Source: an uncultured Blastocatellia bacterium
GTDB lineage: Bacteria; Acidobacteriota; Blastocatellia; Pyrinomonadales; Pyrinomonadaceae
DNA length: 13,663 bases
Assembly: GCA_946480785.1 (NCBI GenBank)
Contig: CAMLLD010000113.1
Span: forward strand, 1 to 13,663
Direction of reading: 5' to 3'
The position numbers and the translations under genes were made by a program. Below, piece after piece: positions 1 to 13,663 of the stretch; position 1 is the first letter of the stretch, and every line of letters begins with the position of its first letter. The notes beneath the pieces are model-generated. The model did no database searches. It saw only the letters and a list, made by a program, of their open reading frames with translations, and had not been told where the DNA came from.

Positions 1-1394
1 CTACCGGTTCCGAGATCAATTCGCTGGTCGAGTATCCGCTGTCCACGGTCGTGCTGGTAATCAAGCCGCCGGGCAGTCATTACGAATTCGAGATCAAGCG
101 CGCGGGACGCAAGGGCAATCCGCTCAACGTTGTCTTTACGCGCAACGGAAATCGCGTTCCGCCGTCGCATCGTCTTGACGGCGGCGCCATGCAGTGGCTG
201 CTGCGTTACGAGGCGAACAACGCGGCGAAGTTTAGTTTGATTTATCGGCTGGTCCATGGGGTAGACGCGCCGTTGCCGGGATACCTGGCGCGCAATAACG
301 TGTTCAATGTTCCGGTCAATGGCAACCAGGCGCCGGCGTTTCGTTACTTCACCGAGCCGCGCGTGTTTGGCTCGAGCGGTTTTCAGGACATGCGCGCGTC
401 GATGAAGGCGGCGGTGGACGCGTTACAGAACGAGGAAGGTGAGTTTTTGCCGCAGCTTCCCGGCGACATGGCGCTGACCGGAGAGTTTCTCAGTCACATC
501 GCGCCGGCCCAGGCGCTGGTTTGCGGGACGAGCTCGTTTCGACTCGATAAAGTCGCCACCTACTTGTCGGCCGAAGGCGCGGAGACTTATTTCAAGCAGT
601 GGCGTCAGGTGGATTACACGAGCGAAGACGCGCGCCAGTTTGCGGATGAGCTGTTGGACGAAGTGCTTGGTGTTTACGTTTCGCCGGACGTTGCTTACGA
701 AGATTACGAGAGCTATTTGCAGGCGGCGTTTGCTGTTGCGGAAAATCGGCGGCGCGCTGACGAGATCTTTCTCAGTTTGGTGAAGCAGATCGCGGTGGTT
801 TGGGGCACGCTGCTTGGGGTGCGCGGCCATTCGCGCGGTGAGTCGTTCGTGGCGCGCAACGTCGGGTTGCGCAGTGTTTGGGAACGAGGCGAGTGGCGCG
901 TGAAGTTGATCTTCATGGACCACGACGCGTTGTCGCTGCCGGAACCGGGGCAGGGACACTTCTTCGCGCAGAACTCTTTGCCGGGCATACTGCTCGACGA
1001 ACGGCACGTTTGGGGGCGCGCGAATCCGGCGCTGTTTGCGGGCACGCTCCTGGGTTGTTTGCAAAGCATTTATCGCCCGAGCGAGGCGCTTGAGTCTGAG
1101 GCGCGGGTGCTTGCCGATGCGGAGTTGAAAGCCGCGTATCAGAAGACGCTCTCCGCGTTGTCGACGAATGTTAAATTGCGCGGGTTTTTCAGTGACGTGT
1201 TTCTCAGCCGCTTGTTTGATTGGGACCAGTTTGTCGGCGGGCATCTCAACGGGCGTGATGAGCGTTGGCAAACCGAGATGAAGAAGATGTTCGCAAAGAA
1301 GGGCTACGAGGCGGACGCGTTTGACGTGTACACGCAGGCCATCGAGCAACACAAGGGATTTTTTGAAAGGAACGGTTTCCTTTTTGAGCGTTAG
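1..1394 (+). CDS. Large protein with weak kinase-fold resemblance, 5' end missing
   Basis: The reading frame is already open at base 3 and ends with TAG at 1392-1394, so the true start lies left of the window; the GTG at 51 is probably internal. At least 463 residues are present. I do not recognise the family. Numbering from the GTG at 51, there is a lysine-containing strand (VIKPPG, 3-8; EFEIKRAG, 12-19), then a helix rich in Glu/Ala (about 44-68). Much later comes an H-x9-N pattern (H260, N270, within RGHSRGESFVARN) followed by a strand ending in MDHD (289-292). That order recalls the catalytic loop and metal-binding Asp of aminoglycoside-phosphotransferase/LanM-type kinase folds, but the match is loose. 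No signal peptide or membrane segment is visible in the part seen. It overlaps the next oxygenase gene, so the two are probably co-translated in one pathway. Coding is confident; the function is speculative. Confidence 0.8.
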   Translation, partial: TGSEINSLVEYPLSTVVLVIKPPGSHYEFEIKRAGRKGNPLNVVFTRNGNRVPPSHRLDGGAMQWLLRYEANNAAKFSLIYRLVHGVDAPLPGYLARNNVFNVPVNGNQAPAFRYFTEPRVFGSSGFQDMRASMKAAVDALQNEEGEFLPQLPGDMALTGEFLSHIAPAQALVCGTSSFRLDKVATYLSAEGAETYFKQWRQVDYTSEDARQFADELLDEVLGVYVSPDVAYEDYESYLQAAFAVAENRRRADEIFLSLVKQIAVVWGTLLGVRGHSRGESFVARNVGLRSVWERGEWRVKLIFMDHDALSLPEPGQGHFFAQNSLPGILLDERHVWGRANPALFAGTLLGCLQSIYRPSEALESEARVLADAELKAAYQKTLSALSTNVKLRGFFSDVFLSRLFDWDQFVGGHLNGRDERWQTEMKKMFAKKGYEADAFDVYTQAIEQHKGFFERNGFLFER

Positions 1395-2190
1395 TTTGTC
1401 GTCAGCTTCGGTCGATCGATATGGCCGTGAAGGGATCTTGTTTCCGGTCCCGGTGCTTAGTGCTGGCGAGGTCGTGCGGTATCGCGATGCGCTTGAGGCG
1501 GTGGCTGCGAGTTGTCGCGGCGACGGTTACCGGAGGCGCTTCGATAACCTGCACCTGTTTTTTCCGTGGGCTTATCGGCTCGCGACGAACGAAGCGCTGC
1601 TCGATGCAGTGGAAAGTATTCTAGGGCCGGATCTCGTGATCGACGGTTCGCTGGTCTTTTACAAACCGCCGCACGATTCGAGCTACGCGTCGTGGCACCA
1701 GGACAGCGTTTACTCGGGCTGGCACCTGACGCCGTCCGTCTCCGCGTGGATCGCTTTGACGCCGAGCGAGCGCAGCAACGGTTGCATGCGCGTGATTCCC
1801 GGTTCGCACCAGGACGGACTGCTGGACCACGACAACATCGTCGATCCGGATCTTTTGAACCGCCGCGGTGAGCGTTTGCGCGACGACGTTGACGAATCGC
1901 TGGCGGTGGATGTGGAGTTGAGTCCCGGTGAGATGTCGTTGCATCACACGAACGTGGTGCACGGCTCGAACGCGAACCGGTCGAATGGACCACGCATCGG
2001 CTTCATCGTGCGCTTCGTGACGAACCAGACGACGCGACGCGATCGACGCGTGATGCGCGTAAGAGGCGCGGCAGATTGCAGTCACCTGCAGCTCGCATCG
2101 CCGCCTGTCGAGGAAGATTTACACCTGGCCGTGACGAGGTGGCGCGAGGCGATGGACTCAGCGCGGCAGCCGGAGAGCGTGGTTCGGTGA
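1384..2190 (+). CDS. PhyH-family Fe(II)/2-oxoglutarate dioxygenase 1
   Basis: Predicted cytoplasmic non-heme iron oxygenase that couples 2-oxoglutarate decarboxylation to hydroxylation, or a related oxidation, of a small substrate. With the TTG at 1384 as start it has 268 residues, normal for PhyH proteins. The iron ligands are visible: H105 and D107 in SWHQD, and distal H193 in VVHGSNAN, followed by R204 (PRIGF), which should bind 2-oxoglutarate. Asp107 is kept, arguing against halogenase activity. No in-frame ATG precedes the conserved region. TTG 1384 has AAAGGA at 1366-1371; TTG 1396 is an alternative, and TTG 1321 would overlap the upstream gene by 74 bases. The start overlaps the kinase-like gene by 11 bases, suggesting coupling. 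The 3' end overlaps the opposing glycosyltransferase by 33 bases. It is clearly paralogous to the PhyH gene at 3294. Substrate unknown. Confidence 0.88.
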   Translation: MSVSLSSASVDRYGREGILFPVPVLSAGEVVRYRDALEAVAASCRGDGYRRRFDNLHLFFPWAYRLATNEALLDAVESILGPDLVIDGSLVFYKPPHDSSYASWHQDSVYSGWHLTPSVSAWIALTPSERSNGCMRVIPGSHQDGLLDHDNIVDPDLLNRRGERLRDDVDESLAVDVELSPGEMSLHHTNVVHGSNANRSNGPRIGFIVRFVTNQTTRRDRRVMRVRGAADCSHLQLASPPVEEDLHLAVTRWREAMDSARQPESVVR

Positions 2191-3276
2191 TTGAAACAAG
2201 CGCAACGGGTTCGACTCAGTTCTTTGCGCTTCGAGTGCTTCGCGTTTGATAAACCGGCAACGGCTTTCAACGTTCTTTGCTACCGTGCTCTTTGAAACAT
2301 CGATGCCGCGGGTGATCCCCGTTTGGCGAAGCAATTGAGCTTGCTCCGGTGTGAGGTCAATCACTTCGCTAAACCCCGTCGCGCCGTCGTACTCTTCGCA
2401 CATGAGCAAGTTCGCGCGAACATCAAGCGTCTCGAGATAAAGATCACTGTCAGTCAGCAGAAAAAATCCGGTTTTCAAATCGCTGTTTGAAATCCCCTGC
2501 TCGAAGTCGTCGCAAACGACGATCTGCGCCAACGGCGAGAAATACTCGTGATAGTAACGTTCGAGAAACCTCGCGTTCTCATCGCCAGCACAGCTCTGAG
2601 CGATCACGATCGCCGTCTGGCCAAGAAGGCGATCGACGTGCGCGCCAAACAGCACCAGCGACTTTTCGAGATACCAGTGGCGCTCCAAACGGTTCTGCAC
2701 GTCTGAATACTCAGACTGCACCCACGCGAGATGCGGCAGGAAACAGTAAGAGTTGAACCGCTGCTGCAACTCGTAAGCATTCACGTCGAGCACGTGCTCG
2801 GCCCTGGCGTTCAACTCGACAAACGCGTCGAACACGGTGCGCTTCAACGCGTACGCATAAGTCGAGTTGCCCTTCGTGATTCGATAAACGTGGTCGCTGA
2901 CACGCACGGGCTCATCTTTGTGCAGCGCGCCGAAATAAAGCAGGTCCCAGTCAGCCGGAACTTCGCCGATGAACGAAGCAAACTTCGTCGTAAACTCCGG
3001 ATCGAGCACCGCGTCGTCTTCGAAGATCAGCACGCTCTCGTGGTCCAACTCGCGCGCCGCCTGGACCACCTGCACGTGACTGAGCAAACAGCCATAAGCT
3101 CCCGCCGTGTGTTTCCAGTGCGGAGGCAGGACCAACGCGTTGCCGTCGCACGCCGAGAAGCGACGCACATCAGCAATCCCGTGCCGCGCAAACTCCGCTT
3201 GCATTCGTTCCCAGCGGTCGGCGCGTCGATCGAGGTTGATACAGACTTTATGAGGGAAGAGGTCGTCGAGCAGCAT
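2158..3276 (-). CDS. GT25-like glycosyltransferase with extra C-terminal domain
   Basis: The N-terminal ~200 residues match the glycosyltransferase family 25 (LPS-type) pattern: CINLDRRADRW (12-22), GAYGCLLSHVQV (59-70), VLIFEDDAVL (82-91, with the acidic metal/sugar-nucleotide site) and WDLLYFG (110-116), then a Tyr/Ala-rich segment at 140-145. GT25 enzymes move a sugar from a nucleotide donor to an acceptor. The protein continues to 372 residues, longer than a minimal GT25. Residues ~205-350 have a second alpha/beta character with IVIAQSC (223-229), a DxD-like LLTDSD (273-278) and a charged helical tail, possibly a second GT-A-like or acceptor-binding domain (inference). It is the only gene on the - strand here. 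ATG 3276 is the first possible start after a stop; no Shine-Dalgarno precedes it. It may decorate the cluster product rather than LPS, given its neighbours. Confidence 0.85.
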   Translation of the reverse strand: MLLDDLFPHKVCINLDRRADRWERMQAEFARHGIADVRRFSACDGNALVLPPHWKHTAGAYGCLLSHVQVVQAARELDHESVLIFEDDAVLDPEFTTKFASFIGEVPADWDLLYFGALHKDEPVRVSDHVYRITKGNSTYAYALKRTVFDAFVELNARAEHVLDVNAYELQQRFNSYCFLPHLAWVQSEYSDVQNRLERHWYLEKSLVLFGAHVDRLLGQTAIVIAQSCAGDENARFLERYYHEYFSPLAQIVVCDDFEQGISNSDLKTGFFLLTDSDLYLETLDVRANLLMCEEYDGATGFSEVIDLTPEQAQLLRQTGITRGIDVSKSTVAKNVESRCRFIKREALEAQRTESNPLRLFQSPNHALRLPR

Positions 3277-3285
3277 CGAGGCTGG

Positions 3286-3291
3286 ATTATA
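3286..3291 (-). promoter_or_regulatory. Possible -10 element (TATAAT) for the GT25 gene
   Basis: Read on the - strand, the 17-base divergent spacer contains a perfect TATAAT nine bases before the GT25 ATG. That spacing would place the transcript start at or next to the start codon, so the message would be nearly leaderless, which fits the lack of a ribosome-binding site. No good -35 was found; the nearest is TTGGTG (plus-strand 3312-3317) at a wide 20-base spacing. A chance match is quite possible. Confidence 0.3.
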
Positions 3292-3293
3292 GA

Positions 3294-4076
3294 ATGATCT
3301 CCGTGCTCACTCACCAACAATTAAGCGAATACGACGAGCTGGGTTTCCTCCACTCGATCCCCATCCTCTCGCCGGATGAGGTCGCGCGTTTTCGCGCCGA
3401 GATCGAGGAGACGTGTCGCGCGCTCGGCGGCCGCGTCACGCGCCTCGACGGGCCGCATCTCTATTTTCGCTGGGCCTGGGAACTGGCCACGCACCCGCGC
3501 GTGCTCGACTGCATGCAGCAACTCATCGGGCCGAACATTCTGCTCAAATCCACGCGCGTCTTTTATAAATTCGGCAACAGCGATTCGTTTGTCGGCTGGC
3601 ACCAGGACGGCATCACGGAAAAGTTGAAAGACGCGTACGTGCCCGCGATCTGGCTCGGCCTGACTCCGGCGACCGCCGAGAACGGTTGCCTGCGCGTGGT
3701 GCCGCGTTCGCATCGGCTCGGTTTGATTCCACACGCGAGCCGGCCCAACCCCGACAACTTAACGACGCAGGGCGCCACCGCGCAGGTCGAGATCGACGCG
3801 CCGCAGGACGTCGTGATGCAGGCCGGCGAGATGAGCCTGCATCATCCGCTCGTGCTGCACGCGTCGAATCCGAACCGCTCGTGCGAATCGCGCATCGGTT
3901 TCTCCGCGACATATTCGACGCCCGCGTTGACGGCGAGCCGCACTGCGGTCGCGTGGGTGCGCGGCGATGGTCCAAGAGATCGTTTCCGCATCGTCGAGCG
4001 ACCGCCGGCGCGTTCGATCGAAGCGGCAGTCGCGGCTTATCGAAAAGAAGATCATCAGGTTCTCTTCGCAAGGTGA
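3294..4076 (+). CDS. PhyH-family Fe(II)/2-oxoglutarate dioxygenase 2
   Basis: 260-residue predicted 2OG-dependent oxygenase, paralogous to the PhyH gene at 1384. Shared landmarks include the N-terminal FxxxIPILSPDEV-like segment, LIGPN, VFYKF, the WHQD iron motif (H103, D105), NGCLRVVPRSH (130-140), GEMSLHH (178-184), distal H189 in VLHASNPN, and R200 in SRIGF for 2-oxoglutarate. The loop after HQD and the stretch 150-170 differ from the first copy, suggesting a different substrate or position. The ATG at 3294 has GAGG at 3278-3281 and lies 17 bases from the divergent GT25 start. It is the first gene of the long + strand run, so the main operon promoter should lie in or before this short spacer; I see no convincing + strand -35/-10 pair. 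The stop overlaps the next gene in a GTGA. Confidence 0.9.
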   Translation: MISVLTHQQLSEYDELGFLHSIPILSPDEVARFRAEIEETCRALGGRVTRLDGPHLYFRWAWELATHPRVLDCMQQLIGPNILLKSTRVFYKFGNSDSFVGWHQDGITEKLKDAYVPAIWLGLTPATAENGCLRVVPRSHRLGLIPHASRPNPDNLTTQGATAQVEIDAPQDVVMQAGEMSLHHPLVLHASNPNRSCESRIGFSATYSTPALTASRTAVAWVRGDGPRDRFRIVERPPARSIEAAVAAYRKEDHQVLFAR

Positions 4077-4945
4077 CAAAGCCACTTCTTTCCGTTGTAA
4101 TCCCCACCTGGAATCGCGCTCACATCGTTTGCGACGCGGTCGCGAGTGCGCTCGCGCAACGCGAAGGAGCGGTTGAAGTGATCGTCGTGGATGATGCGTC
4201 GACGGATGGGACCGCCTCGGTGTTGCAAGAGACTTTCGGTTCGCAGGTTCGTGTGTTGCAGCTTGGCAGTCGTGGTGGACCGGGCGCGGCGCGAAATGCG
4301 GGCGCGTTGTTGGCGAGTGGCGAGTTCGTTGCCTTTCTAGATTCAGACGATGTTTGGCTGCCGGGAAAGTTAGACGCTGAGTTGCGCGTCTTCGGTGACT
4401 TTCCCGACGCTAACGCCGTCGTGTCTGATAGTCGAAGCTTTTTCGAAGGCGAGGCTGATGGTCCGAGTCGCTTTGCGCAGAATGGTTTGCTCGCCGCGAC
4501 GCGCGGCCGCGTGCGTTTCGCCGACGACTGCAATTGGCTTTGGACCAACAGCATGCTGACGGCGCACACGTGCGGGATTACCGTGCGGCGCGAAGTGCTC
4601 GCGCAACTCGGCGAGCGTTTGTTTGCCGAAGATCTGCCGTGTTGCGAAGACTGGGAATTTCAGTTACGCGTTTACAACCTCGGCGGTGTGATGGTGTTGC
4701 CGGAAGTTTATTCGTCAGTGCGACGATTCAACGACGAGTCGCGTCTCGGCCGCGGCATTCCCGGACAGGAACGGACGCGCGAGCAGGACCTGATGCTCTT
4801 GCGCGCGCGGCTGGCAGTAATTGAGAGATCGAAGTCGTGGTTGCACGGACTACGGCCCAATCTCGCGGGCGAGCTGGAACGCTTTCGTCGCGAAACGGAA
4901 GCGCAGTTCGCGCGCTTAACTACGAAGGTTATGATCGCGTCATGA
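4073..4945 (+). CDS. Glycosyltransferase family 2
   Basis: Predicted GT-A-fold inverting glycosyltransferase of 290 residues. The order is typical of GT2: LSVVIPTWNR (6-15), the nucleotide-binding VIVVDDASTDG (36-46), GGPGAARNAG (68-77), the metal-binding FLDSDDVW (88-95), and the catalytic-base region LPCCEDWEFQLR (188-199, ED at 192-193). There are no membrane helices, so it should act on a soluble acceptor. The GTG at 4073 is chosen because it opens directly on the conserved TKPLLSVVIPTWN strand and shares a GTGA overlap with the preceding PhyH stop. The frame stays open upstream to 3686, but that stretch is Arg/Ala-rich and lies antiparallel in frame to the PhyH gene, so it is spurious. 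It is followed by an ATGA overlap with the methyltransferase. Likely glycosylates the pathway intermediate; sugar and acceptor unknown. Confidence 0.9.
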   Translation: MTKPLLSVVIPTWNRAHIVCDAVASALAQREGAVEVIVVDDASTDGTASVLQETFGSQVRVLQLGSRGGPGAARNAGALLASGEFVAFLDSDDVWLPGKLDAELRVFGDFPDANAVVSDSRSFFEGEADGPSRFAQNGLLAATRGRVRFADDCNWLWTNSMLTAHTCGITVRREVLAQLGERLFAEDLPCCEDWEFQLRVYNLGGVMVLPEVYSSVRRFNDESRLGRGIPGQERTREQDLMLLRARLAVIERSKSWLHGLRPNLAGELERFRRETEAQFARLTTKVMIAS

Positions 4946-5703
4946 TGATCGAGGAAGTACATCTGTGGCGAGGCACGCCGGCTGAGCGCGCGCTGCGTTC
5001 GCAGCTCGTGAAGAGTACGCAATTTGCTTACTTCGACGAGCAACTCGATCATCCCGATTGGACCGGTAAGCTGGTGCTCGACTTCGGCGGCAACAAGGGT
5101 AACCTGTTGCGCGATCCTGCGTGCGCGATCGCTCACGAAAACTATTACTGTCTCGACGTGATCAGCGACGCGATCGAAGAAGGACGGCGCACGTTTCCGG
5201 ACGCGCATTGGATCCACTACGACCGTTACAACCGTTCATTCAACCCCGAAGGCGTGCGTGAATTGCCCGTTCCCGATCTTGGTTTGCGCTTTGATTTCAT
5301 TCTTGCCTACTCAGTCTTCACGCACACGACCTTCGAGGAAATGAAGGACCTCGTCGCGCAACTCGAAAACCTTCTCGCGCCCGGCGGCGCACTCGCGTTC
5401 ACGTTCATCGATCCACATTGGCGCTCCAACCTCGAGTGGCGTTTACGACGCAGCCACGCACCGCACGTAAACGATCTCGTCGTGGCGGCGAGTACGGCGG
5501 ATTGGTGCTCGCTCATTAACGGCAGCGAGCTGTACGTGAACAGCAACGGGCCGTGGAACCTGAGCGCCGAAACGTGCGCTACTTACAACGTCTATTACAC
5601 CGAGAGATTTTTGCGGCGCGAGTTTCCCCGCGCGGTCGTGCGGCCGCCCGTCAACGGCGAGATGCAGCACTGCGCGATTCTGCGAAAGGACACCGCGAAG
5701 TAA
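4942..5703 (+). CDS. Class I SAM-dependent methyltransferase 1
   Basis: 253-residue predicted S-adenosylmethionine methyltransferase, first of three paralogues here. SAM-binding motif I is KLVLDFGGNKGN (43-54). The acidic residue ending strand 2 is probably D72 (YCLDV), and the post-motif strands are FDFILAYSVFTHT (117-129) and LAPGGALAFTFIDPHW (145-160). All three copies share a QF-x-YF element before motif I, a DRYN/NRYS segment after it (94-97 here) and a C-terminal E-[MW]-Q-H-C motif (240-244 here). The ATG at 4942 overlaps the GT2 stop as ATGA; upstream in-frame starts such as 4837 would lie deep inside GT2. The stop TAA abuts the next ATG with no gap. Target atom and substrate cannot be read from sequence; O-methylation of an oxygenase-made hydroxyl is a reasonable guess. 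Confidence 0.87.
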   Translation: MMIEEVHLWRGTPAERALRSQLVKSTQFAYFDEQLDHPDWTGKLVLDFGGNKGNLLRDPACAIAHENYYCLDVISDAIEEGRRTFPDAHWIHYDRYNRSFNPEGVRELPVPDLGLRFDFILAYSVFTHTTFEEMKDLVAQLENLLAPGGALAFTFIDPHWRSNLEWRLRRSHAPHVNDLVVAASTADWCSLINGSELYVNSNGPWNLSAETCATYNVYYTERFLRREFPRAVVRPPVNGEMQHCAILRKDTAK

Positions 5704-6603
5704 ATGCGCGCGTCGTTGCCGGTCAGTGCGAAAGTCATGGTTGCGCCGTCGCTCGCGGACGGCTTGCTGAAGACTGCGGAGCGCCTGCCCCATTACGACA
5801 ACCAGGACTTCTATTCGACTGAATTGCAGGCGAGCGTTCATGCCGCGTTGCGCGCGGACAACACAGCGCTCGATTCGTTGATAGAACAGATCGAGCTGCG
5901 ACTGCAGCGTCCGCCCTATTGCGCCGTCGTACAAGGTTTAAAGTTCGACGAAGGGAACAAGGTTTTTGTCGGCCTCAATCGGGCCTTCGGTGAGCTGGTC
6001 GCGCGACCTTATCAGGCGCCACGCGCGCAGTTGGTCCATTACATTCAACCGGCGACTGACATCATGTCGGCGCGCGGCGGCCACGAAAGCGAGCGTTTGC
6101 ACACTGACACTGCCGATTGGGAACCGCCCGTCGAGTTGATCTCGATGGTTTGCGTGCGCGCCGACTTCATGGGTGATGGTTGTTCGCTCATACTCGATGT
6201 CGACTCTATCCGCGAAGAAGTGCGCGAACATCTCGGCCCGGAAGTCTTACACCGGCTCGAAACAGAAGCTGTTCCGTGGCAGTTAGCCGATTATCGCGGC
6301 GGCGGTGTGCAGTGGCGAACGATCCTGAGCGGGTCGAGTGTATGCTGGCGTCGTTACACGATCGATATGGCGCTCGATTCCACAGGCGCAAAGCTGTCGC
6401 CTGAAATGCTGCGCGCGTTAGCTGACTTTGAAGACGTGATTTCAAACACGCCGCGGACGATCGAGTACTTGATGCGTGAAGGTGAGTTGTTGTTTTCCGA
6501 CAACCGCCGCACGATTCACGCGCGCACGCCAATCTCGGAAGGCACGGCATCGGAACGGTTGATGATTCGCAGTTGGGTAAGGAGGGCACAAGGTGGAGCT
6601 TAG
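5704..6603 (+). CDS. TauD/TfdA-like Fe(II)/2-oxoglutarate dioxygenase
   Basis: 299-residue predicted oxygenase of the TauD/clavaminate-synthase-like branch, distinct from the PhyH proteins in the window. Evidence is the RLHTDTADWEPP segment with iron ligands H133 and D135, the QWRTILSG strand (203-210), and LLFSDNRRTIHARTPI (262-277), whose H272 is the distal iron ligand. R285 or R289 in RLMIRSWV is the expected 2-oxoglutarate partner. The NRR-x-x-H-x-R arrangement is characteristic of this family in antibiotic and amino-acid tailoring. The facial triad carboxylate is intact. The ATG directly follows the TAA of methyltransferase 1 and AAAGGA lies at 5685-5690; the 3' end overlaps the next gene by 11 bases. 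Probably hydroxylates or desaturates an amino-acid-like intermediate (inference from family). Confidence 0.87.
   Translation: MRASLPVSAKVMVAPSLADGLLKTAERLPHYDNQDFYSTELQASVHAALRADNTALDSLIEQIELRLQRPPYCAVVQGLKFDEGNKVFVGLNRAFGELVARPYQAPRAQLVHYIQPATDIMSARGGHESERLHTDTADWEPPVELISMVCVRADFMGDGCSLILDVDSIREEVREHLGPEVLHRLETEAVPWQLADYRGGGVQWRTILSGSSVCWRRYTIDMALDSTGAKLSPEMLRALADFEDVISNTPRTIEYLMREGELLFSDNRRTIHARTPISEGTASERLMIRSWVRRAQGGA
6579..6585 (+). promoter_or_regulatory. Strong Shine-Dalgarno fixing the GTG start at 6593
   Basis: AAGGAGG lies seven bases before GTG 6593, inside the end of the TauD-like gene. It is the best ribosome-binding site in the window, and it decides this non-ATG start. Confidence 0.7.
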
Positions 6604-6964: not shown

Positions 6965-7323
6965 TCACCAGTGCAAACTCCTCCAGCTTGTCAGGCCGTT
7001 GGTTGAACACGAACCGCGACACGCGCGGCATTTCCGAATGTGTGGTGGCCCAAAACGGCGAAGACATCACTGTCAGCATCACTGCGGTTGACGAACCTGT
7101 TCGTTGGCCCATCGCACGCGCGACGGTTTTGGCGAATCTCGAAGAGGAAACCGGACAGCGCACGGTGGCGCTGTTGGCGAAGTTCGATCTCGGCGACATG
7201 ACTGCCGACACCCACGTTCGTGTCAACAAAGGCGTGCTGGTGATCGTGCTGTACGTCACCTTTCACGACGACAGCGGCCGTTCGAACTATCTCAATCGCG
7301 AGTTCTTCTATCGTGCTGATTAA
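6961..7323 (+). CDS. Small beta-rich protein B, paralogue of A
   Basis: 120-residue protein homologous over its full length to the gene just upstream. Shared landmarks are G-R-W-L-N-T-N-R-D-T (12-21), DITVSITAV (35-43, compare KLTVRVSAV in A), a central acidic loop, KGVLVIVLYVTFHDD (90-104) and YLNREFFYR (110-118). Where A has DWG, B has RWP. That and overall divergence suggest an old duplication kept for two ligands or for a heterodimer. No signal peptide, cysteine pair or metal motif is visible. ATG 6961 overlaps the stop of A as ATGA and has GAGGG seven bases upstream. The stop TAA (7321-7323) is followed at once by the short TCCGTG-type repeat in front of methyltransferase 2. Function unknown; its position between an oxygenase and a methyltransferase argues for a direct pathway role. 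Confidence 0.83.
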   Translation: MITSANSSSLSGRWLNTNRDTRGISECVVAQNGEDITVSITAVDEPVRWPIARATVLANLEEETGQRTVALLAKFDLGDMTADTHVRVNKGVLVIVLYVTFHDDSGRSNYLNREFFYRAD

Positions 7324-7332
7324 CTTTGATCG

Positions 7333-7360
7333 GTCCGTGTAATTCGTGTAAATCCGTGGC
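7333..7360 (+). repeat. Short imperfect tandem repeat (TCCGTGTAA-type units)
   Basis: Three imperfect units follow each other: TCCGTGTAAT, TCGTGTAAA and TCCGTGGC. I recall closely similar strings as dispersed intergenic repeats in Acidobacteriota and Verrucomicrobiota genomes, but could not check copy number. The block sits exactly where the 5' end of methyltransferase 2 should be, and its last unit supplies the likely GTG start. Confidence 0.55.
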
Positions 7361-8111
7361 TTTTCTCTCAACGAAAACGGGGCAGTTCACGTACTTCGCA
7401 CAGCAGCTCGGTGAGACAAACTGGCGCGGCAAGAACGTCCTCGACTTCGGCGGCAACATCGGCAACATCCTCCGCGATCCGCAATCCACGATCGATCACG
7501 AGCGCTATTGGTGCCTCGACGTCGTGCCCGAGTCGATTGAAAAGGGAAGAGCGGAGTTTCCCGAATCGCACTGGATCTTTTACGACCGGTATTGTTTCTA
7601 CTTCAATCCGTCCGGCGTCGCGCAGCTTGATTTGCCGCCACTGGAAGAGTCGTTTGATTACATCGTCGCCTACTCGGTGTTTACGAACACGCCGCGCGCC
7701 GACATGCTGCAGCTCGTGCGGCAACTCGAAGATCGTTTGGCGCCGCGCGGCGCGCTCGCGTTCACGTTTATCGACCCGCATTACCACTCGTGGCCCGATC
7801 GTTACGGGAGCAACAACCTGGTGTGGCGGCTCGAACGCGAGATCTTTCTCGAAGGAGAGAAGGGCAACACGCTGGGCATCGACGTGCGCGCGCTCAGCGA
7901 ACGAGCGCAGGACGCGTCGTGGTTCGTGCTCGTGAATGGTGAAGATTTGTATCTCGAAACTGAGGACGTGCCCCGGTACGAACCGGAGCGGCAACGCACT
8001 TTTCACACGTTCTACACGGTCGAGTACATGCGTTCGCTGTTTCCACACGCAGAAATCTTGCCGCCGGCGAACGAGGAGATGCAGCACTGCTGCGTGATTA
8101 GGAAGAGTTGA
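7356..8111 (+). CDS. Class I SAM-dependent methyltransferase 2, short N-terminus
   Basis: Second methyltransferase paralogue, 251 residues from GTG 7356. Motif I is NVLDFGGNIGN (27-37), the acidic end of strand 2 is probably D55 (YWCLDVV), followed by FDYIVAYSVFTNTP (100-113), LAPRGALAFTFIDPHY (128-143) and the C-terminal EEMQHCCVIRK (240-250). Compared with the first copy it carries an extra loop (about 146-185) resembling one in the third copy. The N-terminus is 17-24 residues shorter than the paralogues up to the shared QF-x-YF element (QF at 10-11). The start lies in the TCCGTG repeat and has no Shine-Dalgarno. TTG 7326 would add ten residues encoded by the repeat and is the alternative. 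The core is intact, so it is probably functional, but the upstream repeat may have replaced its original 5' end. Confidence 0.83.
   Translation: MAFLSTKTGQFTYFAQQLGETNWRGKNVLDFGGNIGNILRDPQSTIDHERYWCLDVVPESIEKGRAEFPESHWIFYDRYCFYFNPSGVAQLDLPPLEESFDYIVAYSVFTNTPRADMLQLVRQLEDRLAPRGALAFTFIDPHYHSWPDRYGSNNLVWRLEREIFLEGEKGNTLGIDVRALSERAQDASWFVLVNGEDLYLETEDVPRYEPERQRTFHTFYTVEYMRSLFPHAEILPPANEEMQHCCVIRKS
8100..8105 (+). promoter_or_regulatory. Ribosome-binding site favouring ATG 8115
   Basis: AGGAAG ends nine bases before ATG 8115 and six before the adjacent GTG 8112. Both codons are in frame; the ATG is preferred, and the difference is one residue. Confidence 0.5.
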
Positions 8112-8114
8112 GTG

Positions 8115-8960
8115 ATGGACTTCGTACCGCTCACTGCCGAGCAGCGTCACGCGTTTGAGGAAGACGGTTTCCTCGTCGTGCGCAATGCGCTCGATCGCGA
8201 TTTGCGCGAGCGATTGCTTGGCGAAGCGGATGAGGTGGCCGAAGCGTTTCTGCGCAAGCCGGTGATCGCGGGCAAGCCCGAATACAACCATCTCGATTGG
8301 CGTCGTGGCTTATTGAAAAGGAAAGCGCTGTTGTCGCTCGTGGCCCACGCGCCGACGGTGTCGCTGGTGGTGCAACTACTCAGCCCGAACATTCACTTGC
8401 ACTCGACGACCGTGATTTACAAACGACCCGAGACTGCCGATACGCCGGTGTTTCGCCGCGGCTGGCATCGCGACATCCGCATGGCGCGCGACTTCGGTCA
8501 CAAGAATCTGCCACTCGCGGGCATCAAGATCTGTTACTGCCTGACTGATTTTGCGCAGCCCGAGTCGGGCATGACGCTGATGGCGCGCGGCACGCATCTG
8601 CGCACCGAACCGTTGCGAATCGCGAAAGGCGCGGTCGATCCGCTCGACGCGGAAGTATGCGACGTGCAACTCAACGCGGGCGATGCGCTGTTGTTCGAGA
8701 ACCGCATCTTTCACACGGCTGCGCCGAATCGCAGCGAGCGCACTTCGAAAGTAGTGATCTACGGATACGCGTATCGCTGGCTGAAGCAGGAGGTCTATCT
8801 CGAATCACCGGACGAGCAACAACTGCTCGAAACCGATCCGATCACGCGCCAACTCCTCGGCGGTTACCGCGACCTCGACACGCCGCCCTGGGCGCTCGAG
8901 CGCTGGGCCAAAAAGCACGGCGTTGTACGCGAGAAACTTTCGTGGACCACCGAGGTTTGA
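8115..8960 (+). CDS. PhyH-family Fe(II)/2-oxoglutarate dioxygenase 3
   Basis: 281-residue predicted PhyH oxygenase, clearly more distant from the two PhyH genes at the left than those are from each other. It opens with the family hallmark FEEDGFLVVRNAL (14-26). It has the iron motif GWHRD (H118, D120), the strand IKICYCLTD (137-145), SGMTLMARGTH (151-161), AGDALLFENRIFH with distal H200, and TAAPNRSERTSKVV (201-214), whose R209 is the likely 2-oxoglutarate ligand. The Asp of the facial triad is present, so hydroxylation or a related oxidation is expected rather than halogenation. It follows methyltransferase 2 by three bases and precedes methyltransferase 3 by five, forming a methyltransferase-oxygenase-methyltransferase block. 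Substrate unknown. Confidence 0.9.
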   Translation: MDFVPLTAEQRHAFEEDGFLVVRNALDRDLRERLLGEADEVAEAFLRKPVIAGKPEYNHLDWRRGLLKRKALLSLVAHAPTVSLVVQLLSPNIHLHSTTVIYKRPETADTPVFRRGWHRDIRMARDFGHKNLPLAGIKICYCLTDFAQPESGMTLMARGTHLRTEPLRIAKGAVDPLDAEVCDVQLNAGDALLFENRIFHTAAPNRSERTSKVVIYGYAYRWLKQEVYLESPDEQQLLETDPITRQLLGGYRDLDTPPWALERWAKKHGVVREKLSWTTEV

Positions 8961-8965
8961 TTTTG

Positions 8966-9757
8966 ATGTCACTGGATGACGCTCAACTACTGACCGACAG
9001 CGCGAAGCATCTATTCGCGCCCGTGAACACTTTTTCGTGGAACCTCGTGTCCACGCGCCACACGCAGTTTCCGTATTTCAACGAACTACTCAACCGCCCC
9101 GTCTGGCGCGGCCGCAAGATCCTCGACTTCGGCGGCAACATCGGCACGTTTCTCGAAAGCGCCGGCGACAACGTGGACCACGCCGACTACTGGTGCATCG
9201 ATCTCAACCCCGCGGTGATCGCGCAAGGCCGCGAACTCTACCCGCGCGCACACTTCGTGCATTTTAATCGTTACAGCCCGCAATACAATCCCCACGGCGT
9301 TCGCCACCACCCGATCCCCGATTGCGGCGTGAAGTTTGATTTCATTCTCGCGTTCTCCGTGTTCACGCACGTCGATCAAACGGAGATGCTTGAGCTGGTC
9401 GGCGCGCTGCGGCGGATGTTGTCTGACGACGGCGTGCTCGCGTTTACGTTTCTCGACCCGCAATACGATCGCTCGCTGTCCGATCCTGAGTCTCCGCTTG
9501 GCGCGACCGTCATCTGGAACCTTGGACCACGACAGAACGAAGCGGCCTTGTGGCGCGCGGGTTGGTTCGTGCTGATCGACGACCAGCTTTATCTCGAGCC
9601 TGCCGACGCCGTGTGTCACCAGACGCGCCACGGCAAACCGCTCGAATCGTTCTGTTCGTTCTTCACCGCGCGATACATGCAATCACTTTTTCCCGACGCG
9701 GAGATCCACGCGCCGGTGCAACGTGAATGGCAACACTGCTGCGTGTTGCGAAAGTAA
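8966..9757 (+). CDS. Class I SAM-dependent methyltransferase 3
   Basis: Third methyltransferase paralogue, 263 residues. Motif I is KILDFGGNIGT (51-61), the strand-2 acid is probably D79 (YWCIDL), followed by FDFILAFSVFTHV (124-136), DDGVLAFTFLDPQY (154-167), and the C-terminal EWQHCCVLRK (254-263). It has the longest N-terminus of the three, with about 30 residues before the shared STRHTQFPYF element. ATG 8966 is chosen because it opens the first plausible folded segment and has GAGG at 8952-8955. The frame is open to 8657, but that part overlaps the PhyH gene and is Arg-rich shadow sequence. The TAA lies three bases before the first LLM gene. Three diverged copies with identical architecture suggest three methylations on one scaffold or three scaffold positions (inference). 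Confidence 0.88.
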   Translation: MSLDDAQLLTDSAKHLFAPVNTFSWNLVSTRHTQFPYFNELLNRPVWRGRKILDFGGNIGTFLESAGDNVDHADYWCIDLNPAVIAQGRELYPRAHFVHFNRYSPQYNPHGVRHHPIPDCGVKFDFILAFSVFTHVDQTEMLELVGALRRMLSDDGVLAFTFLDPQYDRSLSDPESPLGATVIWNLGPRQNEAALWRAGWFVLIDDQLYLEPADAVCHQTRHGKPLESFCSFFTARYMQSLFPDAEIHAPVQREWQHCCVLRK

Positions 9758-9760
9758 GCG

Positions 9761-10921
9761 ATGGCGCTCAGGTTTCACTGGATGCTGCCGAAAGGCGGCG
9801 AAGTAAAGATCGACGGGCGGCAGACGCCGCTCGAGGCGGCGCGTTATCGCATCGAGTCGATGTCGACTGAGTCGCCCGCGCCGAAGCCCGATCTGGTCGG
9901 TTGGACGCACTTCGCGCGACGCGCTGAAGCAGCAGGCATCGAGCAGGTGTTGATCTCGTTCAGTCGTTACGAGCCCGATCCGTTTCTGGTGGCTTGTGCG
10001 TTGGGCCAGGCGGTCGCGAAGCTGAAGTTCATCATCGCGTATCGCTCGGGGCTGATGCAGCCGACGACGTTTGTGCAACAGATGAACACCGCGTCGGCGC
10101 TGGTCCAGGGTCGCGTCGCTTTCAACATCGTAGCGGGAAGCTCGTCGGAAGAGCAGCATGGTTACGGTGATTTTCTTTCGCACGACGAGCGTTACGCGCG
10201 GGCCGAGGAGTTTCTTGCGGTGTGCAACGCTTTCTGGTGTGGGGATGCGGACGTCGAGTTCGCCGGCAAGCATTATCAAGTCGAGCACGGAAAGATCGCG
10301 ACACCGTTTGTGGCGGGTGAGCGTGCTGGTGCGTCTGGCGCACACGTCGCTGCGCCCGGCGCGCACGTCGCTGCTTCCGGCGCACACGTCGCTGCTTCCG
10401 GCCTGAACCCTCACGCGCGTCCGGAGATCTACGTTTCGGGGCACTCGCCGCGGTCGGAGGAGCTCGCCTATTCGCAGGGGACGTGTTGGCTGCGCGTAGC
10501 GGAAGCGCCGGAGAAGCTCGCGCCGATCGTGGCGCGGGCGCGCGAACGCGGCGTTGGCGTGTGTTTGCGGTTGTGTTTGGTGTGCCGTCCCACGCGCGAC
10601 GAAGCGATCGCAGTGGCGGAGAGTCTGTTGCCGGTGGATCGCGAGGAGAGCACGACGACGTTGAAAGACGATTCGCAGATGTATCGCGAAGGTAAGAGTG
10701 TGAAGAGCGACGAGCACTGGCTGACAGATTCGTTGTGGACCGGCCTCGTGCCGCACTACGGTCCCGTTTGGACCACGTTGCTCGGCACACCGCGCGAGAT
10801 CGCGGACGCTTTACTCGAATACGAGCGCATCGGCGTGACGGAGTTCATCATCTCGGGTTGGCCCGAGCTCGACACCGTCGACACCTTCGGCCGCGAAGTG
10901 CTGCCGCTGGTTCGTGTTTAG
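9761..10921 (+). CDS. LLM-class flavin-dependent oxidoreductase 1 (SsuD-like) with repeat insert
   Basis: 386-residue bacterial-luciferase-fold (LLM) protein, close to the alkanesulfonate monooxygenase/SsuD branch, expected to use FMNH2 and O2 for monooxygenation. Landmarks: FHWMLPKGGE (5-14), VLISFSRYEPDP (63-74), KFIIAYRSGLMQP (89-101), FNIVAGSSSEEQ (121-132), HDERYARAEEFL (141-152), GKHYQVEHGK (169-178), EIYVSGHS and, near the C-terminus, GLVPHYG and EFIISGWPELD. In SsuD the corresponding regions bind the flavin phosphate and shape the active site. It has an Ala/Gly/His insert (residues 193-213, from three 21-base repeats) absent from the downstream paralogue. The start is three bases after methyltransferase 3, and the paralogue starts with the same LRFHWM. 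A partner flavin reductase is not in the window. The substrate is probably not a sulfonate, given the context. Confidence 0.9.
   Translation: MALRFHWMLPKGGEVKIDGRQTPLEAARYRIESMSTESPAPKPDLVGWTHFARRAEAAGIEQVLISFSRYEPDPFLVACALGQAVAKLKFIIAYRSGLMQPTTFVQQMNTASALVQGRVAFNIVAGSSSEEQHGYGDFLSHDERYARAEEFLAVCNAFWCGDADVEFAGKHYQVEHGKIATPFVAGERAGASGAHVAAPGAHVAASGAHVAASGLNPHARPEIYVSGHSPRSEELAYSQGTCWLRVAEAPEKLAPIVARARERGVGVCLRLCLVCRPTRDEAIAVAESLLPVDREESTTTLKDDSQMYREGKSVKSDEHWLTDSLWTGLVPHYGPVWTTLLGTPREIADALLEYERIGVTEFIISGWPELDTVDTFGREVLPLVRV
10337..10399 (+). repeat. Three in-frame 21-base tandem repeats inside LLM gene 1
   Basis: Units at 10337-10357, 10358-10378 and 10379-10399 are nearly identical. They share the core GCACGTCGCTGC or its ACACGTCGCTGC variant and encode GAHVAAP, GAHVAAS and GAHVAAS. 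The array keeps frame and falls between the conserved GKIATPF and PEIYVSGHS blocks, where the paralogue has only a six-residue linker. Likely slipped-strand expansion in a surface loop. Confidence 0.85.
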
Positions 10922-11020: not shown

Positions 11021-11038
11021 CACATAACACTGTAAAAA

Positions 11039-12118
11039 ATGAATCTCAGGTTTCATTGGATGATGCCGAAGGGTGGCGAGGTCGGGATGAGGACCGCGCA
11101 GGAGACCTCGCGCGTCGCCACGACCAAAGCGAGCTCGCCCGCCGCGCTGCCCGACATGGAAGGCTGGACGCGCTTTGCGCGTTGCGCTGAAGACGCGGGC
11201 ATCGAATCGGTGTTGCTTTCGTTCAGCCGCTACGAGCCCGACACGATCCTGATCGCGTGTGCGATGGGCCAGTTCGCAAAGAAGCTCAAATTCATCGTCG
11301 CGTATCGCCTCGGCCTGATGCAGCCCGCGACGTTCGTGCAGCAGATCAACACGCTGTCGGGCCTGATCGACGGCCGCGTCAGTCTGAACATCGTCGCCGG
11401 CAGTTCGGCTGTCGAACAACGCGGCTATGGCGATTTCCTGGGCCACGACGAACGCTACGCGCGCGCGGAAGAGTTTCTCCAAGTGTGCCGCGCGTTCTGG
11501 GCGGGCAACGGCGAGGTGAACTTCGCGGGCAAGTATTGTCACGTCGAGAAAGGGAAGATCTACACACCGTTTCAAGCGCCCGATCGGAAGTCGCCGGAGA
11601 TCTACGTGTCGGGCCATTCGGAACAGGCGCAGCAACTCGCGTTGAGCCAGGCGTCGTGTTATCTGCGCTTGATCGACACGCCTGAAAAACTCGGCCCCGT
11701 AGTTTCACACTTTCGCGCGAACGGCGTGGAGGTTTGTCTGCGGCTGTGCGTCGTGTGCCGGCCGACGCACGACGAGGCGCTCGCGGCGGCGAGAGCGTTG
11801 TTGCCGTCGGAAGAGGTCGGACGCGAAGAGCGCGGAATTCTTTCGCGCAGCGATTCGAAGACGTTGAAGGACGCGCTCGCCGCGGCGGATAACGTCGGCT
11901 GGTTAAATCGAAATCTCTGGGCGGGGCTCGTGCCTTACTACGGTTCGTCGGCGATGACGCTCGTCGGCACGCCGGAGGATCTGGCCGCGGCATTTCTCGA
12001 GTACAAACGAATCGGCGTGACGCAGTTCATCATCGCCGGCTGGCCCAAGCTGGACGAGATGATGATCTTCGGGCGGGAAGTCTTGCCATTGGTGCGCGCA
12101 GCCGAGCAACAACAATGA
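11039..12118 (+). CDS. LLM-class flavin-dependent oxidoreductase 2 (SsuD-like)
   Basis: 359-residue paralogue of the preceding LLM gene with the same framework: LRFHWMMPKGGE (3-14), VLLSFSRYEPD (58-68), KFIVAYRLGLMQP (84-96), LNIVAGSSAVEQ (116-127), HDERYARAEEFL (136-147), FAGKYCHVEKGK (162-173) and SPEIYVSGHS (185-194). It lacks the Ala/His repeat insert. The N-terminal linker (about 15-40) and the region after the conserved LLPS segment differ most from copy 1, and these are the regions expected to form the substrate entrance in LLM proteins. ATG 11039 has no Shine-Dalgarno (an A-rich TGTAAAAA precedes it), but matches the start of copy 1. The hairpin repeat upstream may set its expression apart from copy 1. 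It ends in an ATGA overlap with the 2OG oxygenase. The two could form a heterodimer, as luciferases do, or act at separate steps. Confidence 0.9.
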   Translation: MNLRFHWMMPKGGEVGMRTAQETSRVATTKASSPAALPDMEGWTRFARCAEDAGIESVLLSFSRYEPDTILIACAMGQFAKKLKFIVAYRLGLMQPATFVQQINTLSGLIDGRVSLNIVAGSSAVEQRGYGDFLGHDERYARAEEFLQVCRAFWAGNGEVNFAGKYCHVEKGKIYTPFQAPDRKSPEIYVSGHSEQAQQLALSQASCYLRLIDTPEKLGPVVSHFRANGVEVCLRLCVVCRPTHDEALAAARALLPSEEVGREERGILSRSDSKTLKDALAAADNVGWLNRNLWAGLVPYYGSSAMTLVGTPEDLAAAFLEYKRIGVTQFIIAGWPKLDEMMIFGREVLPLVRAAEQQQ

Positions 12119-12900
12119 CAGCGCCTCTATCCAAAGATCCGTTGGGTTTCGTCGTTGAGCGGCTACGCAGTGCGCGCGTCGAGGACAATCCCTTCCCGCA
12201 CTACTACCTCGAGGGCGTGCTGCCTAAAAACTATTACCAGGAGCTGTTAAGGCACCTCCCGGGCAGCAGCGTTTACGAGAATCTCTACGAAGTGACAGAT
12301 CTTAAACTCGATCATTTCCGCCATCGCTACCAACGCGATCTAAACGAAGGTTGGACCAACGCGCTGCCGCCGGAGCTGCAAAACTTCTGGAACTCGTTCA
12401 ACGAATGGTTCCTCTCACCACGACTCGCGCAAGCGTTCCTTGAATCTTTCGCTGAACCGTTGCGAGCGCGTATCGGCGAGCGTGAAACGTGGCCGGAAGT
12501 GTCGGTTGAAGCGCAGTTCATTCGTCATCGTGCGGGTTACTTTCTCGGGCCACACTCCGATCTCTACACGAAGCTCGTCGTCGTCTTGCTCTATCTCGCG
12601 CCTGATGCGCGCGCCGCACGTCTCGGCACATCGCTCTATCGCCCGAAGCAGGCGGGCTTCAGTTGTCCTGACAGCAAGCACTACGCGTTCGAAGATTTCA
12701 TCCGCGTAAAGACCGCGCCTTATAAACCGAATTCGCTGCTGGCGTTTGTGCGCTCGGACATTTCATTTCACGGACTCGAGCCCTTGACGGAAGAGGACGT
12801 CGCGAGCGAGGGGCGCGATCTGATTCAGTATGTGGTCCATGACAAAGCCGCACGCGAAGCGCAGCAAAAAGCTAAGCGCGCAGAACGGGTGACGTCATGA
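12115..12900 (+). CDS. 2OG-Fe(II) oxygenase, prolyl-4-hydroxylase-like
   Basis: 261-residue predicted 2OG oxygenase of a third subtype. It opens with the typical DNPFPHYYLEGVLP segment (24-37). The iron ligands are H147 and D149 in LGPHSDLYTK, the following strand is VVVLLYLAP (155-163), GTSLYRP (171-177) fits the family GT-x-[LF]-Y loop, distal H219 is in ISFHGLEPL, and R234 in GRDLIQYVV is the expected 2-oxoglutarate arginine. Such proteins hydroxylate peptides, amino acids or sugars. A Lys/Ala/Glu-rich helical tail follows (244-259). It begins in an ATGA overlap with LLM 2 and ends in an ATGA overlap with the ATP-grasp gene, so translation of the three is probably coupled. Weakest family assignment of the five oxygenases at sequence level, but the full triad plus Arg is visible. 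Confidence 0.82.
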   Translation: MTAPLSKDPLGFVVERLRSARVEDNPFPHYYLEGVLPKNYYQELLRHLPGSSVYENLYEVTDLKLDHFRHRYQRDLNEGWTNALPPELQNFWNSFNEWFLSPRLAQAFLESFAEPLRARIGERETWPEVSVEAQFIRHRAGYFLGPHSDLYTKLVVVLLYLAPDARAARLGTSLYRPKQAGFSCPDSKHYAFEDFIRVKTAPYKPNSLLAFVRSDISFHGLEPLTEEDVASEGRDLIQYVVHDKAAREAQQKAKRAERVTS

Positions 12901-13663
12901 CGCGGCGCATACTTCTCGTTTGTAGAACTTCCTCGGCGGAAAGTATGAAAAGCGCGCAGGCAATCGCGGCGCTTGATGATGTCGACGTTGTGACCACAGA
13001 TGTGAGCGGCGTCGAGGTCTTGCTGGAAACGGCGCGTAAGCTTCGCGATGAACACGGATCAGCACAAGCGTCACTCGAGCGGATCGTTACGGCGCAGGAG
13101 ACGTTGCTTGAAGCAGTTGCGCTGGCGAATAAAGCGCTCGGTTTGCCGGGGTTGAGTGTCGCAGCAGTGCGTAGAACATTGGACAAGTCGCAGCTCAAGT
13201 CGACGCTGAAAGCCGCGGGGCTCAACACGCCGCAATACAAGGTCGTTACCAATTCAGACGAGGCGCGCGCCTTTGCGGGACAGATCGGTTTTCCGATCGT
13301 TTTGAAATCTGTGGTTGGCAGCGGTGCGCTGGCGACGTTTCTCGTCCACAGCGAACACGACCTGATACGAGTAATAGACCGCGGTCCTTTTCTCGCGGAG
13401 CAATACATCATCGGCCAGGAGCTCTGCATCGACACGATCACGATCAACAACGAACCGCAGTTTCACTCGATCTGCTGCTACCAACCGTCGATACTCGCAG
13501 CAGTCGAAGACCCAAACACACAGTGGTCCTGCATCATGCCGCGCGACATGACGCCCTACAACCACTTCATCGAACAAGGAGTCACCGCGATCCGCGCCCT
13601 CAACGTCGGCAACGCGATGACGCACATGGAAGGCTTCCTCGACGCAACCGGCCGCGCGTGGTT
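12897..13663 (+). CDS. ATP-grasp ligase, 3' end missing
   Basis: The frame opens at ATG 12897 (ATGA overlap with the previous stop) and stays open to the window edge, giving 255 residues without a stop. The N-terminal ~90 residues are a pre-ATP-grasp-like domain (RRILLVCRTSS at 3-13). The ATP-grasp part then shows LDKSQLKSTLKAAGLNTP (95-112), the nucleotide-loop strand GFPIVLKSVVGSGA (131-144, K137 for ATP), LAEQYIIGQEL (166-176) and THMEGFLDATG (242-252). Family members form amide or peptide bonds through an acyl-phosphate; this arrangement resembles the L-amino-acid ligase (BacD/YwfE-like) and carbamoyl-phosphate-synthase-like groups. The catalytic C-terminal magnesium site lies beyond the window. 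In this context it is the best candidate for the scaffold-building step. Acid and amine substrates are unknown. Confidence 0.87.
   Translation, partial: MTRRILLVCRTSSAESMKSAQAIAALDDVDVVTTDVSGVEVLLETARKLRDEHGSAQASLERIVTAQETLLEAVALANKALGLPGLSVAAVRRTLDKSQLKSTLKAAGLNTPQYKVVTNSDEARAFAGQIGFPIVLKSVVGSGALATFLVHSEHDLIRVIDRGPFLAEQYIIGQELCIDTITINNEPQFHSICCYQPSILAAVEDPNTQWSCIMPRDMTPYNHFIEQGVTAIRALNVGNAMTHMEGFLDATGRAW

Follow-up and report, generated by a model that had tools for sequence, protein, structure and literature searches.

The DNA described here, 13,663 nt of contig CAMLLD010000113.1 from an uncultured Blastocatellia bacterium (the window), forms the central part of a longer conserved Acidobacteriota cluster that spans about 30 to 35 kb in two relatives (G097, about 30 kb; G001, the Pyrinomonadaceae isolate SH2, about 34 kb from C756:9990 to the contig end). 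The locus is conserved beyond chance, carries an oxidative-tailoring gene set, and opens inside g01, which codes for a predicted kinase-fold protein; in eight of nine relatives a short same-strand open reading frame (ORF), with a conserved motif and a tail that is usually rich in lysine, lies directly upstream of g01. We tentatively favor the interpretation, which may well be mistaken, that the cluster modifies this ribosomally made, lysine-rich, low-complexity protein. What is new is the conserved pair in uncultured soil Acidobacteriota, a lysine-rich repeat protein with a short motif and an unannotated partner of predicted kinase fold. In most genomes, though not in every one, this pair is linked to an exceptionally crowded group of hydroxylase, glycosyltransferase, and flavoenzyme genes. 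Should the repeat protein be the substrate, it would belong to a previously undescribed kind of heavily modified bacterial protein and perhaps be a source of bacterial hydroxylysine-type chemistry; if it is not, the locus would make an unknown, perhaps shikimate-derived, metabolite, and both readings are testable with defined gene sets.

Ten genomes were found to carry g01, and nine of these have sequence upstream of it, the contig of G001 ending there. The upstream ORF was recognized in G102, G101, G097, G002, G003, G285, G352 (two copies), and G130: by reading in G102, G285, and G130 and for both G352 copies, by a composition scan in three genomes, and by a profile in G097. Its conserved part, about 25 residues long, reads approximately VxLxRxxAxELxxALxxALG and is followed by a variable low-complexity tail with repeats such as GKD, GGGKKD, GGGKTTT, GGKPST, and APKS; lysine makes up 18 to 52% of the tail in all copies except the second of G352, and the tails of G102, G101, and G097 are almost devoid of serine and threonine. 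A profile built from seven seed copies, leaving out those of G097 and G003, was searched against 4038 ORFs drawn from 23 sources with some overlap, and at E ≤ 1 it returned eight ORFs, all upstream of g01, namely the seven seeds and the unseeded G097 copy (E 7e-10). Judged by sequence, eight of the nine loci resemble those of ribosomally synthesized and post-translationally modified peptides (RiPPs), with a conserved N-terminal part and a variable core encoded beside putative modifying enzymes. The first 40 residues of the G101 protein, used as a query, found one protein (P0241) among 7 candidates. We note that in G352 (G352:C480, L045 about 13169 to 13755) two different precursor-like genes stand in tandem upstream of g01, the second having APKS repeats and a hydrophobic C-terminal end; an ORF that by eye is sulfotransferase-like lies at 11240 to 12268 of the same locus.

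The first-pass annotation of the window had reported neither a precursor peptide nor a core synthase. The first of these statements does not extend to the relatives and is probably an edge effect, since the window starts within g01 and the precursor-like ORF lies upstream of it in eight of nine loci. The second is borne out: no nonribosomal peptide synthetase or polyketide synthase domain was found in the Pfam-scanned ORFs of the window and its relatives, some flanking ORFs (for example, three of 647 to 1143 amino acids [aa] in L023) being unscanned. The gene-neighborhood comparison suggested at that stage shows that the set recurs whole in G102 (L021), where counterparts of all 16 window ORFs keep the same order and strand (14 matched by BLAST at 52 to 83%, the small-protein pair g08/g09 by reading and profile), and in part in G001, G101, G097, G002, G003, and G004; gene calls in the relatives come from a home-made ORF picker.

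With the G102 g01 protein as query, 929 homologues were obtained among 7995 scored candidates, and none of the 120 listed of these has a Pfam domain. Genome searches placed g01 in 4 of 396, 5 of 9, 1 of 72, 4 of 119, 3 of 19, and 2 of 18 genomes, the overlapping sets giving the ten genomes in total; it was found in none of 398 genomes of the phylum of G005, in a search run without a positive control, and no match was found among plasmid sequences, a search that left the Gloeothece chromosome outside. Pfam contains models for both CotH and SelO, the latter from the SelO/YdiU kinase-fold AMPylases, which count among the nearest known systems, and the full-length orthologue matches neither these nor any other Pfam family at E ≤ 0.1, nor any solved structure at E ≤ 1. 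The kinase-like character originally given to g01 is thus upheld in part, by a structure model of a full-length orthologue that has a protein-kinase-like fold, and finds no Pfam family to go with it. In G001, an HPAT-like protein is encoded next to g01, which we count in favor of the modified-protein interpretation. A 758-aa protein beside the G097 cluster (G097:C6, L055 14483 to 16759) has no Pfam or NCBIfam family and by eye also resembles a kinase-fold protein.

Linkage of this pair to the tailoring genes is frequent. PhyH1 (g02), a 2-oxoglutarate (2OG) oxygenase gene, directly follows g01 in the window, G102, G101, and G097. Relatives of the luciferase-like monooxygenases (LLM; g13 and g14) were found at E ≤ 1e-30 in 11 of the 14 genomes tested and in seven of the ten genomes with g01, and in six of the seven having both they are on the g01 contig, the LLM gene of G101 being on another; G097 has g01 but no LLM. 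Within the order of G001, LLM genes (E ≤ 1e-60) are present in 3 of 4 genomes with g01 versus 3 of the 115 remaining genomes (Fisher p 2.9e-4, uncorrected for kinship). Twelve of the 14 tested genomes, all except G130 and G285, have the small-protein family of g08 and g09, its copies lying side by side apart from G001, where one opposite-strand ORF separates them. On the 5' side, a giant MnxG-like multicopper oxidase is encoded near the precursor in five of nine genomes. The two genes are neighbors in G101, G097, and G102, where the contig end truncates the oxidase; one ORF separates them in G002, and roughly 1 kb does so in G003, whose oxidase is likewise cut. Where complete (G002, G101, and G097), the oxidase is 1947 to 2073 aa long, the G101 protein is by sequence a homologue of MnxG (9bxa, E 4e-80), and the N-terminal stretches resemble signal peptides by eye. 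Because members of the oxidase family are present in 13 of 14 genomes, and spread over several contigs in some of these, we take adjacency alone as evidence.

From the gene order, motif, protein families, and predicted folds that were seen directly, we infer docking, transfer, lysine hydroxylation, and glycosylation, as well as all functions, in the following scheme. The conserved motif would be the docking part, and g01 would put a phosphate or nucleotide on the tail. The 2OG enzymes may hydroxylate tail side chains, most likely those of lysine, because the G102, G101, and G097 tails contain almost no serine or threonine; the glycosyltransferase family 25 (GT25) enzyme, the other glycosyltransferases, and the methyltransferases would then decorate the hydroxylated positions. 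The LLM pair, the avidin-like pair, the ATP-grasp protein, and RidA may make or attach a further group, and the product would act outside the cell together with the copper oxidase. The scheme draws on the precursor upstream of g01 in eight of nine loci, the recovery of the G097 copy by the profile, the g01-PhyH1 order, the relatives of GT25, the HPAT-like neighbor, the predicted kinase-like fold, the linkage of LLM to g01, and the adjacency of the oxidase. A pattern in which hydroxylases go with tails lacking serine and threonine (low in G102, G101, and G097; high in G285 and G130, which are without the small pair or LLM) is retained as a lead only, because G002 and G003 have Ser/Thr-rich tails plus hydroxylases.

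Several observations count against modification of the Lys-rich protein by this cluster. The precursor is known from relatives, and none is seen on the window's own contig, which starts inside g01; G545 has g01 with no recognizable precursor motif upstream of it, the G003 copy has two weak motif copies only (11.4 bits each, with E 1 for the whole sequence), and the tail of the second G352 copy is Ala/Pro-rich, with lysine at 8%. No protease or leader-cleavage gene was identified, a Foldseek search with the g01 model gave nothing below E 0.75, and PhyH1 does not directly follow g01 in G001, G002, or G003. Low-complexity lysine tails are also able to bind polyanions unmodified. Finally, neither the small pair nor LLM accompanies g01 and the precursor in G130 and G285, and the g01-precursor pair of G130 stands among housekeeping-type genes; g01 and the precursor thus do not require the tailoring enzymes as partners. 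Conversely, LLM genes and the small pair occur without g01 in the draft genomes G119, G110, G005, and G004 and on a Gloeothece plasmid. From these separate occurrences, the cluster consists of two modules, which are combined in most, but not all, genomes.

A serious possibility, although one we do not consider probable, is that the tailoring genes make a shikimate-derived small molecule and that g01, the Lys-rich protein, and the copper oxidase form a neighboring, separate module. Such a molecule would be built by dehydroquinase/shikimate dehydrogenase (SDH)-like, acyl-CoA-dehydrogenase-like, LLM, and 2OG enzymes, coupled to an amino acid through the ATP-grasp ligase, methylated and glycosylated, and exported by a transporter-phosphatase fusion. 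Genes for the dehydroquinase/SDH-like enzyme, the small pair, the acyl-CoA-dehydrogenase-like enzyme, the transporter-phosphatase, and LLM are found together in G119, G002, and G005 and partly in G110, G545, and G003, and the dehydroquinase/SDH-like, acyl-CoA-dehydrogenase-like, and phosphatase-fusion genes share the g01 contig in three relatives: further on, after glycosyltransferase genes, in G001 and G097, and beyond the oxidase, with LLM and the small pair, in G002. Four residues of the G001 enzyme that we take to be catalytic, Lys and His in the dehydroquinase part plus Lys and Asp in the SDH part, align with their equivalents in the solved bifunctional enzyme 2gpt, and a Pseudoalteromonas LLM relative is grouped with a DAHP synthase gene and three ATP-grasp genes. 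The G102 ATP-grasp protein (52% identical to g16) is nearest to the L-amino acid ligase 4wd3 and to BacD, which is consistent with the ATP-grasp-built small molecule first proposed for the window. The ATP-grasp protein does not, however, look like an obligatory builder, because a DUF7790-like gene and RidA come straight after LLM2 in G001 and G004, where g15 and ATP-grasp are missing from that place, and no ATP-grasp was recognized in the G097 cluster. Against a small molecule, the precursor-g01-PhyH1 order, the sharing of a contig by LLM and g01 in six of seven genomes, and the GT25 gene are left unexplained; G097 has the dehydroquinase set without LLM, the G119 segment expected to hold the dehydroquinase Lys reads differently by eye, and no dehydroquinase gene was seen near the locus in G102, the closest relative of the window, whose contig ends at RidA.

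We doubt two further explanations rather strongly, and about equally. The varying glycosyltransferase content of the relatives (GT25, GT2, GT47, GT-D, Glycos_transf_1, and HPAT-like) is reminiscent of surface-glycan loci, and together with an FkbM methyltransferase in G097 and a weak match of g12 to a sugar O-methyltransferase (NanM, E 0.004) it might indicate that glycosyltransferases and methyltransferases build a surface polysaccharide whose sugars the oxygenases modify; but the scanned ORFs yielded no polymerase, flippase, or initiating sugar transferase, and amino-acid-ligase-like ATP-grasp, LLM, RidA, and dehydroquinase/SDH-like genes would not be expected there. Alternatively, the Lys-rich protein could be an unmodified binder of nucleic acid or polyphosphate and g01 a regulatory kinase, their co-location with tailoring genes being a genomic-island effect. 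The tails of G130 and of the second G352 copy look like those of histone H1, and the housekeeping-type surroundings of the G130 pair fit this too; repeated linkage to 2OG, glycosyltransferase, and LLM genes and to the giant oxidase in several genomes, and the free switching of repeat type among tails, speak against it. It is also conceivable, but unlikely, that protein and small molecule belong together in a form of bacterial tanning, with a phenolic or catecholic shikimate-derived molecule (made by the dehydroquinase/SDH-like, acyl-CoA-dehydrogenase-like, LLM, and 2OG enzymes) being exported and turned by the MnxG-like oxidase into a reactive form that would cross-link the Lys-rich protein, by then hydroxylated, glycosylated, and silaffin-like, to form a layer that lies at the surface or binds minerals.

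Modification of the Lys-rich protein has partial parallels in known systems. The CotB/CotG-CotH spore coat system (PMC7821199) likewise clusters a kinase gene with low-complexity repeat proteins phosphorylated for a surface layer; the CotB/CotG repeats are serine-rich, whereas the G102, G101, and G097 tails are almost without serine and threonine, g01 matches no Pfam family, and the Acidobacteriota locus adds hydroxylases, glycosyltransferases, methyltransferases, and LLM genes. Diatom silaffins (PMC4557024) are repeat peptides carrying trimethylated, hydroxylated, and phosphorylated lysine, a set of modifications that the kinds of enzymes encoded here could by analogy serve. The likeness is one of enzyme kinds, and the silaffin polyamine chains have no counterpart identified in the locus; the comparisons with silaffins and with CotH/CotG are analogies, not memberships. 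The best solved relatives of the GT25 protein are mimivirus R655 (E 2.5e-5) and human procollagen galactosyltransferase 1 (E 2e-4 to 4e-4); for R655 itself, the role of collagen glycosyltransferase is described as no more than putative (PMC9546862). As in hydroxylysine glycosylation of collagen and in mimivirus, a GT25 enzyme is encoded with a Gly/Lys-rich partner protein; unlike collagen, the partner is not a Gly-X-Y protein (longest run 18 residues in G102, 15 in G003, 12 in G002, and 0 in G101), and the oxygenases are of PhyH and TauD types, with a putative lysyl hydroxylase role. The giant oxidase (1947 to 2073 aa) differs in size from the 1227-residue chain of MnxG. Like RiPP clusters in general, the locus places a short gene, its N-terminal part conserved and its tail variable, next to enzyme genes, but here the low-complexity tail is long, no known RiPP core enzyme family appeared in the scans, and no leader protease was identified; lanthipeptide synthetase and graspetide readings were weighed as well, and no LanC, dehydratase, or radical SAM family was found in the ORFs scanned. 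A literature search turned up no paper that we recognized as describing this gene set, in agreement with the original view that no characterized cluster has it, and the excerpted text of a survey of Atacama soil metagenome-assembled genomes (MAGs), which reports RiPP and other clusters in Pyrinomonadaceae, does not mention it (PMC11520301).

The dense oxidative tailoring set of the window is real (Table 1), and the Pfam families bear out the three methyltransferases, two LLM enzymes, two glycosyltransferases, ATP-grasp protein, and four of the five 2OG oxygenases first annotated; the fifth, g15, scores below threshold, yet has the HSD...H pattern and orthologues at 62 to 70% identity (70% in G102). 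Sixteen ORFs were taken as genes, their starts being picked from the ORF list and a pattern search. Both terminal genes are truncated, g01 lacking its 5' end and g16 its 3' end, so the window is not the whole cluster.

Table 1. Genes of the 13,663-nt window
Gene	Product	Position	Strand	Basis or remark
g01	Predicted kinase-fold protein	3..1394	+	C-terminal 463 aa of ~690 aa; 5' end beyond window
g02	PhyH1, 2OG oxygenase	1384..2190	+	PF05721, E 5e-28; HQD...H
g03	GT25-family glycosyltransferase	2158..3276	-	PF01755 (Glyco_transf_25), E 7e-13
g04	PhyH2, 2OG oxygenase	3294..4076	+	PF05721, E 6e-24; HQD...H
g05	GT2 glycosyltransferase	4073..4945	+	PF00535 (Glycos_transf_2), E 3e-29; start GTG 4073
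g06	Methyltransferase 1	4942..5703	+	Methyltransf_12, E 5e-11; start ATG 4942 or 4945
g07	TauD-type 2OG oxygenase	5704..6603	+	PF02668, E 5e-13; HTD...H
g08	Small barrel protein 1 (sm1)	6593..6964	+	Predicted avidin-like
g09	Small barrel protein 2 (sm2)	6961..7323	+	Paralogue of g08, 31% identity
g10	Methyltransferase 2	7326..8111	+	Methyltransf_12, E 1e-9
g11	PhyH3, 2OG oxygenase	8112..8960	+	PF05721, E 4e-19; HRD...H
g12	Methyltransferase 3	8966..9757	+	Methyltransf_12, E 4e-12; start ATG 8966
g13	LLM1, SsuD-like flavin enzyme	9761..10921	+	PF00296 (Bac_luciferase), E 4e-36
g14	LLM2, SsuD-like flavin enzyme	11039..12118	+	PF00296, E 2e-42
g15	Prolyl-hydroxylase-like 2OG oxygenase	12115..12900	+	PF13640 (2OG-FeII_Oxy_3), E 0.028, subthreshold; HSD...H
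g16	ATP-grasp ligase	12897..13663	+	First 255 of ~405 aa; ATP-grasp domains, best E 3.5e-8

Spacing in 12 of the 13 neighboring same-strand pairs ranges from an 11-base overlap to a 5-base gap, and the other pair is 117 bases apart (10921/11039); the start of g02 is ambiguous (the ORF opens at 1321, with TTG candidates at 1384 or 1396). Three paralogue sets, the methyltransferases, the LLM pair, and the small pair, indicate that duplication accounts for part of the gene density. An HxD motif and a later His followed by Arg or Lys can be placed in all five 2OG proteins by pattern search; 2OG halogenases lack the HxD carboxylate, and a halogenase reading was rejected as these enzymes retain it. 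The TauD-type g07 shows weak, subcutoff NCBIfam likeness to clavaminate synthase and trimethyllysine dioxygenase and no match to solved structures at E ≤ 0.01. The avidin-like barrel of the small pair is predicted from a model of one paralogue. For LLM2, the closest solved structures are alkanesulfonate monooxygenases (best E 2e-42), and the relatives bearing an organism name among the matches listed (85 to 89%) are MAGs of the Acidobacteriota family Pyrinomonadaceae, which places the host probably within this family or close to it. LLM1 contains a tandem repeat at 10330 to 10402 (21-base unit, 3.5 copies, 88% matches) that encodes an Ala/Gly/His/Val-rich stretch, and its ORF is 386 aa long in the window and 367 to 384 aa in four relatives.

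On the 3' side, the ATP-grasp gene is followed by a DUF7790-like gene (subthreshold in Pfam) and then RidA in G102, G101, and G003; the sole PDB match of the DUF7790-like protein, PvcA at E 1.4, was not used. The acyl-CoA-dehydrogenase-like gene has subcutoff matches to SfnB/DszC-type profiles. The low-molecular-weight (LMW) phosphatase domain has phosphatases, including YwlE, as its nearest solved relatives, arsenate reductase appearing only at E 0.009; an arsenate reductase assignment was dropped, as the NCBIfam model (E 3e-6) is subcutoff and ranks behind phosphatase models. Its fusion partner in G097 has a membrane-protein-like N terminus, judged by eye on the G119 homologue, and in G001 (C756, L023 12895 to 16360) a ModC-like ATPase is fused to the domain within a WtpA/ModC-like, tungstate/molybdate-type ABC transporter. 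In g01-less genomes, dehydroquinase/SDH-like, acyl-CoA-dehydrogenase-like, transporter-LMW-phosphatase, and LLM genes lie at 5518 to 14434 of L028 (G119:C55), 9040 to 20000 of L092 (G005:C878), and 6028 to 11408 of L030 (G110:C35), with the small pair in L028 and L092; the G005 module adjoins an MnxG-like oxidase.

A plasmid search with LLM2 gave only relatives below 60% identity, the best (48%) from Gloeothece. There, on the Gloeothece verrucosa plasmid NC_014533.1 (L001, 20001 to 29365), genes for an LLM, FMN reductase, acyl-CoA dehydrogenase, methyltransferase, SDR protein, and four neighboring copies of the small barrel protein adjoin pst phosphate-transport genes and a multicopper oxidase. 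In Pseudoalteromonas xiamenensis (L002, NZ_CP099918.1, 3013 to 17728), the LLM relative (38%) is part of a compact cluster with an NAD(P)H-dependent oxidoreductase, DAHP synthase/chorismate mutase, the three ATP-grasp genes, DUF6421, and efflux genes.

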